From Pediococcus acidilactici DSM 20284 (GTDB taxonomy: Bacteria; Bacillota; Bacilli; Lactobacillales; Lactobacillaceae), in contig NZ_GL397067.1 in the NCBI RefSeq assembly GCF_000146325.1, positions 1,696,860-1,760,859 on the forward strand: DNA of 64,000 bases, in the 5' to 3' direction. The notes below the pieces were generated by a model, which worked only from the letters and a program-made list of their open reading frames with translations, was not told where the DNA came from and made no database searches. The position numbers and the translations under genes were made by a program. Positions 5,437 to 56,475 of this stretch are shown piece by piece (the first letter of the stretch is position 1; the number at the start of each line of letters is the position of its first letter).

Positions 5437-5508
5437 GCGCCGTTAGTGTAATGGATAGCACGTGAGATTCCGGTTCTCAAGATCGGGGTTCGACTCCCCG
5501 ATGGCGCA
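5437..5508 (+). tRNA. tRNA-Arg (anticodon CCG)
   Basis: The 72 bases fold as a full cloverleaf. The acceptor stem is GCGCCGT/ATGGCGC, the anticodon stem is TGAGA/TCTCA around loop TTCCGGT (anticodon CCG), and the T arm is CGGGG-TTCGACT-CCCCG. Discriminator is A; CCA is not encoded. It lies divergently from rpoN and is followed by a T-run and then the structured element at 5541-5618. Confidence 0.95.
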
Positions 5509-18032: not shown

Positions 18033-18662
18033 CTATTGAATAATTGTGCGACTAATTTTTTCTAATTTTAGTTGGTCCGTAAACTCTTCATTTAACAATT
18101 CGGGTAAAACTTTTTCGAGGAAGTATTGCACACTCGGCATGTCCTTATATTTAACAATCGTGGTTAAGCTCTCCTTATAAATGTCAGTATAAACGTCTTC
18201 CGGATTTCCCTTTTGGATTTCACCAAACGATTCGTAAAGCAAGTCAATCTTATCCGCTACCGCTAAAATTTGGCCTTCGATCGTGTCATCCTTGCCCTCT
18301 GACAAACGCCGTTCGTAAGCAGCTTGGAATTCAGCAGGAATTTCATTTTTAATGAAGTTATCCTTCATTGAATCTTCTACATTCGCCAGCATCTTCCGCA
18401 AGTCGGCCGTGGCATACTTAACCGGCGTCTTGATGTCGCCGATAAACCGTTCGTTATAGTCGTGATTAAGGGATTTTTCATAAAGTAAACGCCAATTAAT
18501 TTGGTTTCCTGCATGTTCTTCCACGTCGCCTAAAAATTGAGCGATTTCCGCCACTTTGAAGGAATGTTCCGCGACCGAGTGCTTTTGGTACTTAAAAAAG
18601 CCCGGTGCCCGATAGATCGTTTCTAAATTGCTTAAACTCTTAAAAAATTGATGCATCCCCAT
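18033..18662 (-). CDS. HD-domain phosphohydrolase, YfbR-like
   Basis: This 209-residue cytoplasmic protein belongs to the HD superfamily of metal-dependent phosphohydrolases. It most resembles YfbR-type 5'-deoxynucleotidases and related HD hydrolases. Likely metal ligands are His33 (HSVAEHS), His67-Asp68 (NHDYNERF) and Asp136 (AVADKIDLL), in the H...HD...D order of the family. The ATG at 18662 has GGGGG eight bases upstream. It is a single gene with its own terminator upstream at 18784 and probably the terminator at 17922 downstream. The substrate is not certain; dNMP removal is a family-based guess. Confidence 0.8.
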   Translation of the reverse strand: MGMHQFFKSLSNLETIYRAPGFFKYQKHSVAEHSFKVAEIAQFLGDVEEHAGNQINWRLLYEKSLNHDYNERFIGDIKTPVKYATADLRKMLANVEDSMKDNFIKNEIPAEFQAAYERRLSEGKDDTIEGQILAVADKIDLLYESFGEIQKGNPEDVYTDIYKESLTTIVKYKDMPSVQYFLEKVLPELLNEEFTDQLKLEKISRTIIQ

Positions 18663-18783: not shown

Positions 18784-18817
18784 TAAAAAAGATCCGGCCG
18801 TTAGCCGAATCTTTGCT
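18784..18817 (-). terminator. Terminator after the tandem RNA motif
   Basis: On the minus strand AAAGAT-TCGGC pairs with GCCGG-ATCTTT, followed by TTTTTT. It closes whatever transcript carries the tandem motif at 18848-19047, either the pgm 3' UTR or an independent small RNA. Confidence 0.85.
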
Positions 18818-18847
18818 TATTGAGTTATCAAATTGATGGATAAGTTT

Positions 18848-19047
18848 AAACGTGCTCCGGTACCTAGCTTTCTCCGGTTAACCAAATTTTAGGTTCGATC
18901 GCTCAAACCGCGATCAAACCTAACATCTAGTTAAACTTGCGCTTCACTGCTATATAGCCGAAACGTGCTCCGGTACCCAGTTTTCTCCGGTTAACCAAAT
19001 ATCGGGACCAATCGCTCAAACCGCGATTAGTCCCGATATTCAGTTAA
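18848..19047 (-). ncRNA. Unassigned tandem structured RNA (two 87-nt units)
   Basis: Two copies of exactly 87 bases (18848-18934 and 18961-19047) are nearly identical except in paired segments. In copy 1, 18889-18895 pairs with 18917-18923 and GATCG (18897) with CGATC (18911). In copy 2, ten bases at 18999-19008 pair with 19030-19039, and AATCG (19010) with CGATT (19024). The stem sequences differ but pairing is kept, which is covariation. An outer TTAAC/GTTAA pair closes each unit. Loop CGCTCAAACCGCG and flank CTCCGGTACC are conserved. The terminator at 18784 suggests minus-strand transcription. I cannot match it to a known riboswitch or sRNA family. Confidence 0.65.
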
Positions 19048-19078
19048 TCCTCAAAATCTACCCGGGTCCCTGCGCACT

Positions 19079-20803
19079 CTAGTTTATCAACCCATCAATT
19101 GCCTTTTCATAGTTTTCGATCTTCTTCAAGGTTGCTTCTTCACTTTCGCCTACCGCTCCGATATAGAACTTAATCTTTGGTTCCGTTCCGGATGGGCGGA
19201 TCGCAATCCATGAGCCATCTGCCAACTTAAACTTCAAAACGTCCGCCTTTGGCAATTCGATTGGCGAAGTTTCGCCATTATCTGCGTACTTAGTTTGACT
19301 TAAGAAGTCTTGGGTTTCAACCACCGCAACGTCGTCAAAATGGTCTGGGCGTTCTTCACGAACCTTTTCCATGATTGCTGCCATCTTCGCTTTACCATCC
19401 ACACCAGGGAAATCTTTTGAAATGGTTTTTTCTTCATGGTAGCCATACGTTGTGAAGAGGTTTTGCACCCCATCATAAAGGGTTTGACCCTTACTCCGGT
19501 AATAAGCGGCAATTTCCGCCAATAGTACAATCCCTTGAATGGCATCCTTATCCCGAACAAATGGCCGAACAAGGTAGCCGTAACTTTCTTCAAAGCCAAA
19601 CATAAAGGTGTGTTCGTTGGTTTCTTCATAATGTTTGATTTGATCGGCAATGTACTTGAATCCGGTCAAAACGTCAATCATTTCTACGCCGTGAGCTTCC
19701 GCAATCCGGGTTGCTAATTCACTAGAAACGATTGATTTTACGGCTGCAGCGTTCTTTGGTAAGTCTCCAGCTTCATCGTGGGCGGTTAAAATGTACTCTA
19801 ACATTACCGCCGCAATTTGGTTTCCGGTCAATAACTTGTAATCGCCATTTGGTAAACGAACGGCCGCACCTAGCCGATCCGCGTCAGGGTCCGTCGCAAT
19901 CAAGAGGTCTGCTTGCTGCTTTTTACCTAACTCAATCGCCAAATCAAAAGTTTGGGCAAATTCCGGATTGGGGAATGGTGTTGTGCCAAACTCAGGATCC
20001 GCAATGGCTTGCTTTGGTACCATCGTGTAATCTTTGAAACCGGCATTTTCAAGGGCACGGCCGCCGACTACCTTTCCGGTTCCGTGAAGTGGCGAATAGA
20101 TCAACTTCATATCTGCGCCATATTTTTTAATAAGGTCGTGGTTGATGGAAACCGTCTTTACTTGTGCAAGATATTTCTGGTCAATATCTTCGCCGATCAA
20201 GGTCATTAAGCCCTTTTCACGGAGTTGGCCTTGCGTCAAAGCTTTTACGCCAAAAATATCGGTGACCTTCCGAATGTATTCAGTAATCCGGTCCGATTCC
20301 ATTGGTGGCATTTGTCCGCCATCCGGACCGTAAATTTTATACCCGTTATATTGTTTAGGGTTGTGGCTAGCCGTAATCATAATACCAGCGTAGGTATCGA
20401 GTTCACGAACCGTAAAAGAAAGTTCGGGAGTAGGCCGCATACTATCAAACACGAACGTTGGAATGTTGTGGTTGCCTAAAACACCCGCAGCTTCTAAAGC
20501 AAATTCTTGCGAATGGTAACGGGAGTCAAAACTAATTGCTACTCCCCGTTGCTTGTCTTCGGGAGTTAGCGTGTCCATGAAGTTAGCTAAACCTTCCGTT
20601 GCCTGACGAACCGTGTAAATGTTCATCCGGTTGATTCCCGGACCCATTACCCCCCGCATTCCTGCAGTTCCAAATTCCATCGGTGCATAAAAAGCTTCTT
20701 TTAGCGCTTGTGGATCCTTTGCTAATTCTTTTAATTCTTGCTTTAAGTTAAAATCTAAATCGGCAAAATCTTGCCATTCTTTAACTGAATCTTCCCAGTT
20801 CAT
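19079..20803 (-). CDS. pgm: Phosphoglucomutase/phosphomannomutase
   Basis: This 574-residue enzyme interconverts glucose-1-phosphate and glucose-6-phosphate, linking glycolysis with UDP-glucose and cell-wall sugar synthesis. It has the alpha-D-phosphohexomutase domains in order, with active-site phosphoserine Ser146 in TASHNPKQYNG, the Mg2+ loop DPDADRLG, the sugar-binding FGFEESYGY and the phosphate-binding RPSGTEPKIKFY. The length suits the PgcA-type family. The ATG at 20803 has GAGGAGG upstream. It lies between trxB and the tandem RNA motif; galU, which uses its product, is 1.4 kb upstream on the same strand. Confidence 0.95.
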   Translation of the reverse strand: MNWEDSVKEWQDFADLDFNLKQELKELAKDPQALKEAFYAPMEFGTAGMRGVMGPGINRMNIYTVRQATEGLANFMDTLTPEDKQRGVAISFDSRYHSQEFALEAAGVLGNHNIPTFVFDSMRPTPELSFTVRELDTYAGIMITASHNPKQYNGYKIYGPDGGQMPPMESDRITEYIRKVTDIFGVKALTQGQLREKGLMTLIGEDIDQKYLAQVKTVSINHDLIKKYGADMKLIYSPLHGTGKVVGGRALENAGFKDYTMVPKQAIADPEFGTTPFPNPEFAQTFDLAIELGKKQQADLLIATDPDADRLGAAVRLPNGDYKLLTGNQIAAVMLEYILTAHDEAGDLPKNAAAVKSIVSSELATRIAEAHGVEMIDVLTGFKYIADQIKHYEETNEHTFMFGFEESYGYLVRPFVRDKDAIQGIVLLAEIAAYYRSKGQTLYDGVQNLFTTYGYHEEKTISKDFPGVDGKAKMAAIMEKVREERPDHFDDVAVVETQDFLSQTKYADNGETSPIELPKADVLKFKLADGSWIAIRPSGTEPKIKFYIGAVGESEEATLKKIENYEKAIDGLIN

Positions 20804-56290: not shown

Positions 56291-56399
56291 CCAAAAGTTG
56301 GGGAGTTTGCAAGCACTAACCTAAAAGCGACCATTATTATGTCTAAATTTGGCATAATAATGGTCGCTTTTAGGTTAAGCGGGACAAACTAGCTTTTGG
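56291..56399. repeat. Long inverted repeat with perfect 24-bp core
   Basis: The core arms 56318-56341 and 56353-56376 are perfect reverse complements over 24 bases around an 11-base loop. Pairing continues outward with AGTTTG/CAAACT and CCAAAAG/CTTTTGG, so the whole is ~109 bases. It lies between the convergent lipoprotein and pepN genes. Neither outer side has a T-run, so it is not a normal terminator. Confidence 0.85.
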
Positions 56400-56475
56400 T
56401 GTGTCGACCCTAGTAGAATCAACCCGCCAAAAGGAGCTTTCCGTTTTTTCGCAGTCTCTCGCTTTATTTATCACG

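Follow-up and report, generated by a model that had tools for sequence, protein, structure and literature searches.

A dispersed hairpin repeat enriched at gene 3' ends in Lactobacillaceae, seen as a tandem array behind a pgm-like gene of Pediococcus acidilactici

Between a gene resembling pgm and one resembling the 5'-deoxynucleotidase gene yfbR, the genome of Pediococcus acidilactici DSM 20284 carries two tandem copies of a sequence able to fold as RNA, and the locus raises the question of whether these copies are a regulatory device of the neighboring gene or belong to something more general. They lie in a stretch of 64,000 nucleotides of contig NZ_GL397067.1 (positions 1,696,860 to 1,760,859), here called the window, and a first-pass annotation had described them as a structured RNA motif of no known family, possibly a tandem riboswitch, a protein-binding RNA or a small RNA. 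The copies are two units of a large and apparently undescribed family of dispersed hairpins. The repeat is real, widespread, constrained in structure and enriched at gene 3' ends.

The array behind pgm

Two direct copies of exactly 87 nt occupy positions 18848-18934 and 18961-19047 of the minus strand (82% identical, 113 nt from start to start), just as the first-pass annotation had reported. Its account of the stems also holds: altered letters are matched across the arms, save for one mismatched stem position in 18848-18934, one copy has a ten-base stem of entirely different sequence, and the loop and flanks are conserved in both units. Each copy gives a minus-strand hairpin that beats all 200 of its dinucleotide shuffles (z = -4.8 and -7.2), and the 301-nt stretch from the end of pgm to the terminator (18785-19085) folds with z = -11.6. 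This intrinsic terminator, a hairpin with a T run at about 18785-18814 (minus strand), was recognized by eye, forms a separate hairpin in the fold and lies some 34 nt past the last copy, where 30 bases had been given. The flanking genes are those named earlier, a pgm-like phosphohexomutase gene (19079-20803, minus strand), with the array at its 3' end, and a YfbR-like 5'-deoxynucleotidase gene (18033-18662, minus strand), the NCBI model matches of both being under the equivalog cut-offs.

The real repeat unit is larger than 87 nt, about 113-124 nt, and the TAG stop codon of pgm (19081-19079) is part of the element's 5' end. The first (5') unit extends over 18958-19081 (minus strand; match to the covariance model R1, described below, at 18958-19072 with 125 bits), opens with TAGAGTG, whose TAG is the in-frame pgm stop, and continues with a leader arm, a variable stem with the conserved loop and a trailing arm ending in CACGTTT. 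The second unit, at 18845-18957 (minus strand; R1 match 18845-18956, 66.5 bits), differs in stem sequence and is alike in loop and flanks. A further family member occurs in the window at 56291-56407 on the plus strand (58.8 bits); its outer arms, CCAAAAG..CTTTTGG as read by eye, resemble a second subtype of the element that has extra 3' hairpins.

A cis-regulatory RNA of pgm or of sugar metabolism, of the riboswitch or leader type, would be in keeping with a tandem structured RNA of strong covariation, but the array starts at the pgm stop codon, behind the gene and not in a 5' leader, which speaks against the tandem riboswitch first proposed. A tie to pgm, which the first-pass annotation had proposed to check, is not supported either. 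Among 12 genomes of the genus, in which pgm ends at the same or the next C-terminal residue, ten have a TAA stop and no R1 match behind the gene; the array is confined to the other two, the own genome (G000) and an element-rich genome of the same genus (G009), in which pgm uses the element's TAG and is followed by two and four units, respectively. Other copies of the element follow varied and unrelated gene families, and a switch of this kind is very improbable. In the simplest reading of the sequences, the element would have reached the pgm stop codon in the common ancestor of G000 and G009 and left the protein end unchanged.

A Latilactobacillus curvatus record and the window share the gene order uvrA-uvrB-yfbR-phospho-sugar mutase-trxB-gpsA; in the record the mutase is followed by a transposase gene and gpsA is preceded by a hypothetical gene, and in the window it is galU that precedes gpsA. 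UvrA of the window has 81% identity with its counterpart in an L. curvatus record and 80% with the one in an Enterococcus faecalis record.

Spread of the family

From G000 and G009, 87 units were gathered through sequence search alone, and 42 of them, first in their arrays and hand-picked for presence of the leader arm, were aligned (alignment A2) and used to build R1, a model of 115 positions and 40 pairs. A second, sequence-only alignment (A4) consists of 41 units hand-picked among R1 matches; it includes L. curvatus and a second family, f5, and excludes G000 and G009. The rows of A4 were thus found by a model that rewards pairing and G-U, whereas those of A2 were found by sequence only, and the pairs in both were chosen by RNAalifold on those very alignments.

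A covariance-model search, suggested as a check by the first-pass annotation, recovers homologs with preserved pairing in related genomes. In the own genome a 221-nt query returned 55 blast matches (E<=10, mostly far under 0.001), G009 being comparably rich, and R1 gave 137 matches at E<=0.1, a rough figure that includes opposite-strand doubles and comes from scoring 150 of 1277 first-look candidates. Every one of the 12 genus genomes contains R1 matches, 1 to 131 apiece. Within the family sample R1 matches occur in at least 175 of 397 genomes and in 21 of 40 genera, the genome count being a lower bound since at most nine candidates were scored per genome. The order sample has matches in 22 of 295 genomes, six of them outside the own family (four in genus g67 of f5, one in another f5 genus and one, weak, in family f9), and the class sample in two of 398, the own genome and one at 36 bits, for which reason the element is counted as specific to its group. 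Family f5 altogether has matches in 15 of 76 genomes and three of 21 genera: 13 of 13 genomes in g67 and one genome in each of the two other genera. The presence of the element throughout g67 and its near-absence elsewhere in f5 may reflect a vertical relic or a transfer.

In L. curvatus, R1 finds the element at four places in 50 kb. Two of them are on the strand of hprK between this gene and lgt, a third is directly 3' of yfbR, and the fourth faces the third. A blastn search of plasmids with three stretches (L102, the window copies and L131) gave no matches, and a pattern scan of contigs gave a single stretch, in a metagenome-assembled genome labelled Tangfeifania diversioriginum, which was taken as chance.

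That the motif belongs to no known Rfam family was borne out, as no copy reaches a gathering threshold in Rfam 15: the sole match in the window is a tRNA (5437-5508), seven loci with copies have none, and the best sub-threshold match of the element scores 18.8 bits against a threshold of 104. Among the open-licence papers searched, none was recognized as describing such a repeat family in lactobacilli. Lactobacillaceae are among the best-studied bacteria of food and gut, yet a repeat that numbers some 100 copies in either of the two richest genomes of this analysis is missing from Rfam.

Base pairing and the G-U excess

In A2, 33 of 40 pairs show changes on both sides, 94.8% of cells are paired and none of 500 shuffles attains any of five measures. 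Across genera (A4) two-sided changes occur in 40 of 43 pairs, and 96.8% of cells are paired versus 35-43% for slid structures. Conserved features of A4 include a 5' AGAG.G, a one-sided GGUU bulge, an invariant bulged A, a GA/GNA internal loop adjoining an invariant G-C pair, and pairs of the type UUAAC/GUUAA beneath the variable stem; a second pair covaries (C-G in 29 units, G-C in seven, U-A in five). Orthologous copies (12 of 20 copy pairs, identity >=0.75) show 10 two-sided and 29 one-sided changes with pairing kept, counts given no weight here because the two-sequence fold by construction omits broken pairs. For the second subtype, RNAalifold on 16 copies gives the inner stem only, and the outer fold is drawn from single-sequence folds and reading by eye. 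The maintenance of the shape while the letters change suggests that the folded RNA itself matters.

A palindrome maintained at the DNA level should show equal numbers of G-U and A-C appositions on the sense strand. Among the sense-predicted pairs of A2 the ratio GU:AC is 159:31, and among the 32 pairs predicted from both strands it is 52:26 (bootstrap 2.5% ratio, 1.28); the 34 antisense-predicted pairs give 53 GU to 66 AC, a result due to two pairs found only in the antisense prediction. At one pair of A2, 33 of the 42 units have U-G. Across genera (A4) the sense-strand ratio is 128:10, with 52:7 for antisense-predicted pairs and 101:10 for pairs selected by a rule neutral to GU and AC. When the G000 elements are divided by direction of replication, the ratios are 78:11 for co-directional and 52:17 for head-on copies; exclusion of three wobble-dominated columns leaves 43:11 and a weak 20:14, respectively. 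Strand-biased C-to-T mutation could add to the excess. As read from the alignments, the G-U excess supports, without proving, a fold kept at the RNA rather than the DNA level, and the own-genome set is less clear in this respect. The antisense figure in A2, the head-on figure of 20:14, the choice of A4 rows through R1 and the possible C-to-T bias weigh against this interpretation.

Placement, turnover and possible roles

For 72 of 138 units, the distance between the model start and the stop codon of a same-strand ORF falls in the range -29 to +21 nt; 52 are farther from a stop, many of them inner units of arrays, and 14 lack such a stop up to 400 nt away. Where the distance is 6, the stop is TAG in 20 of 20 cases and is followed by AG in 19 of 20, as in the TAGAG start of the element. 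In two syntenic stretches of 300 kb, 22 of 35 arrays of G000 and 14 of 24 of G009 fall in the interval from -40 to +25 nt around a same-strand stop; for noncoding positions drawn at random the proportions are 7.0% and 6.4%. The upstream neighbor shares the element's strand in 30 of the 35 G000 arrays and 18 of the 24 G009 arrays, against about 50%; 13 and 10 arrays, respectively, are outside the stop-codon window. These stop-codon and strand counts use simple ORF calls rather than curated genes. Convergent gene pairs may have one element per strand (L073, L083, L100; G000 947953 on the plus and 948201 on the minus strand). At L040, L041, L049 and L051, copies stand between two opposite-strand ORFs, as exceptions to the gene-strand rule.

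Ten genes 5' of elements belong to as many Pfam families (tRNA synthetase, IMPDH/GMP reductase, response regulator, fumarase-type lyase, membrane transporter, cyclopropane synthetase-like, aldo/keto reductase, zinc dehydrogenase, YibE/F-like and DUF1836). When upstream ORFs of other genomes were compared with the own genes examined, eight of 35 showed some similarity; two, which come from the same genus, are clear orthologs (90% and 86%), and two aldo/keto-reductase-like ORFs match at 37-40%. This comparison (35 of 44 loci against 58 own entries, which cover the own arrays in part and hold some genes twice) understates sharing. The ori-proximal half of G000 holds 58 of 83 element places, these being R1 matches merged by hand into arrays and the origin being set from dnaA at 1332.7 kb; weaker copies occur elsewhere. 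Replication-directed insertion was considered and is unsupported, both orientations being found (19 co-directional and 15 head-on G000 rows of A2).

Counterpart arrays were compared using 43 of 58 matches of G000 (five others are in the window) and 45 of 66 of G009, the 15 and 21 dropped being the opposite strand of the same copies. Of the 35 G000 arrays, 23 have a G009 counterpart, 10 have none and two are unmappable, and 23 of 24 G009 arrays have one in G000; unit number varies between counterparts (1 versus 3, 2 versus 5). Three of the 10 unshared sites show clean replacement of a hairpin, all by the second subtype with extra 3' hairpins, several copies of which have complementary ends as read by eye. 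At 948201 in G000, about 217 nt of element stand in for a 34-nt terminator hairpin of G009 between the same A and T tracts, at 1197021 the element likewise lies between the A tract and the T tract of the G009 terminator, and at 1110053 the element replaces the terminator hairpin but leaves the T run. At 1173972-1174084 (L163) the element is inserted in the 3' part of an ORF that seems uninterrupted in G009; a 17-nt near-duplicate flanks it on either side, the target is itself an inverted repeat, and the G009 counterpart of 1143358 is apparently a decayed remnant. At the other five unshared sites (974055, 1108195, 1139431, 1145981 and 1181079) the element ends are not fixed. For the window subtype the pgm comparison is the one clean empty site obtained.

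We consider it moderately probable that the window array is a two-unit example of a non-coding hairpin repeat of mobile origin, which occurs in 3' UTRs of Lactobacillaceae and whose fold is maintained as sense-strand RNA. Judging from its distribution, the repeat would be a non-autonomous element of mobile type that has spread through the family and lands at gene 3' ends, either on a stop codon or in place of a terminator hairpin, its arrays changing through gain and loss of units. The array would presumably be transcribed as the 3' UTR of the upstream gene, with each hairpin comprising about 40 pairs, irregular in form and marked by conserved bulges (GGUU, GA/GNA and one bulged A). Either 3'-end nucleases or a trans-acting factor common to the copies would most likely read this folded 3' UTR; the element may thus bind a protein. 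The outcome might be that mRNA 3' ends are stabilized or defined, as is thought for REP/BIME hairpins. Against this reading stand the 14 of 138 units without a nearby stop, the arrays outside the stop-codon window and the restriction of clean replacement to three of 10 unshared sites. A wider proposal, which we hold as tentative and doubtful, is that the folded sense-strand RNA is the functional unit throughout the family and that many unrelated mRNAs of one cell share a protein-read 3' hairpin at the stop codon and so form a hidden post-transcriptional regulon. The element might then also move via its RNA or single strand and, with no known transposase, take over stop codons and terminators.

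The same element could be purely selfish, a miniature palindrome kept at the DNA level by template-switch correction or as a cruciform read by a transposase, with no role as RNA. Its dispersed and patchy occurrence, with presence and absence at corresponding sites of two related species, the variable unit number, the near-duplicate flanks of the ORF insertion, the finding that just two of the 35 foreign upstream genes, both of the same genus, count as clear orthologs within the own set, and the antisense count in A2 would all fit such an element. We judge it rather unlikely in view of the cross-genus G-U excess, which persists on antisense-predicted pairs where equality is predicted, the pair kept as U-G in most A2 units, the conserved one-sided bulges and the placement on the gene strand. 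Independent or processed small RNAs released from 3' UTRs would account for the 3'-end position, the hairpins of the element itself and the terminator behind the window array, but the stems vary from copy to copy, so that a common seed could reside only in loops or flanks, no observation made here speaks for such an RNA in particular, and this explanation appears improbable. If the RNA fold acts, the mRNA 3' ends of many genes would be affected together, and the family would be a workable system for testing how dispersed repeats turn into regulatory RNA. Should the element be selfish, it would be an unusually clean case of a hairpin arriving at stop codons and terminators.

In placement the repeat is BIME/EFAR-like, and none of the families tested gave a match. 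BOX elements of Streptococcus pneumoniae, a member of the same order (Lactobacillales), are built of boxA, boxB and boxC modules, have inner units in tandem and fold in an RNA-like way; compared by description only, the present repeat resembles them in its tandem modular units, RNA-like fold and Lactobacillales host. For EFAR, which De Gregorio is said to have described in 2009, the empty sites are reportedly short hairpins replaced by the element. The three clean sites found here, all of the second subtype, would match this target mode, and EFAR and the Efa-1 repeats of E. faecalis (for Efa-1, PMC2267715, which also lists BOX) are likewise intergenic palindromic repeats of similar size; unlike EFAR, window-type units begin at a stop codon. 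REP/BIME sequences (PMC3733652) share with the present repeat the many copies, the position behind genes, the arrays of alternating units and hairpins thought to protect mRNA, but the unit is about 115-124 nt as against 20-40 for REP, which bears a GTAG or CGTC tag at one end, and the arrays are direct. A REP/BIME system with a RAYT was considered and rejected: a search for the Y1 transposase (Y1_Tnp, PF01797), the one transposase family looked for, found none in G000 or G009 and a partial match in one of 12 genus genomes (G010), and the model has 115 positions and 40 pairs versus a short palindrome of 20-40 nt. With regard to MITEs, whose marks are terminal inverted repeats and a target-site duplication, the observations are the complementary ends seen by eye in several second-subtype copies and the single 17-nt near-duplicate. 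An integron attC site, which would call for R''/R' core boxes and an integrase, came into consideration on account of the location at gene ends and of conservation confined to structure. The L17 downstream element (RF01708; PMC2864571) is also a structured RNA of Lactobacillales 3' UTRs for which the same kind of G-U strand argument was used, but it is tied to a single gene, and the present repeat has no Rfam match.

In a 147-kb part of the E. faecalis record NZ_CP143580, a small part of a genome, R1 has no match at E<=1. The same 147 kb contains short palindromic repeats, one with GAGCGTGGGACAAAAATC, which by eye looks like the 5' end of the second subtype and is a lead rather than an established EFAR copy. 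The records NZ_CP143580.1 (747 kb, E. faecalis; L204-L206) and NZ_CP016468.1 (220 kb, L. curvatus; L207) are labelled as plasmids and look like pieces of chromosome; among the housekeeping genes on them are uvrAB, gatCAB and ligA, or hprK and secA.
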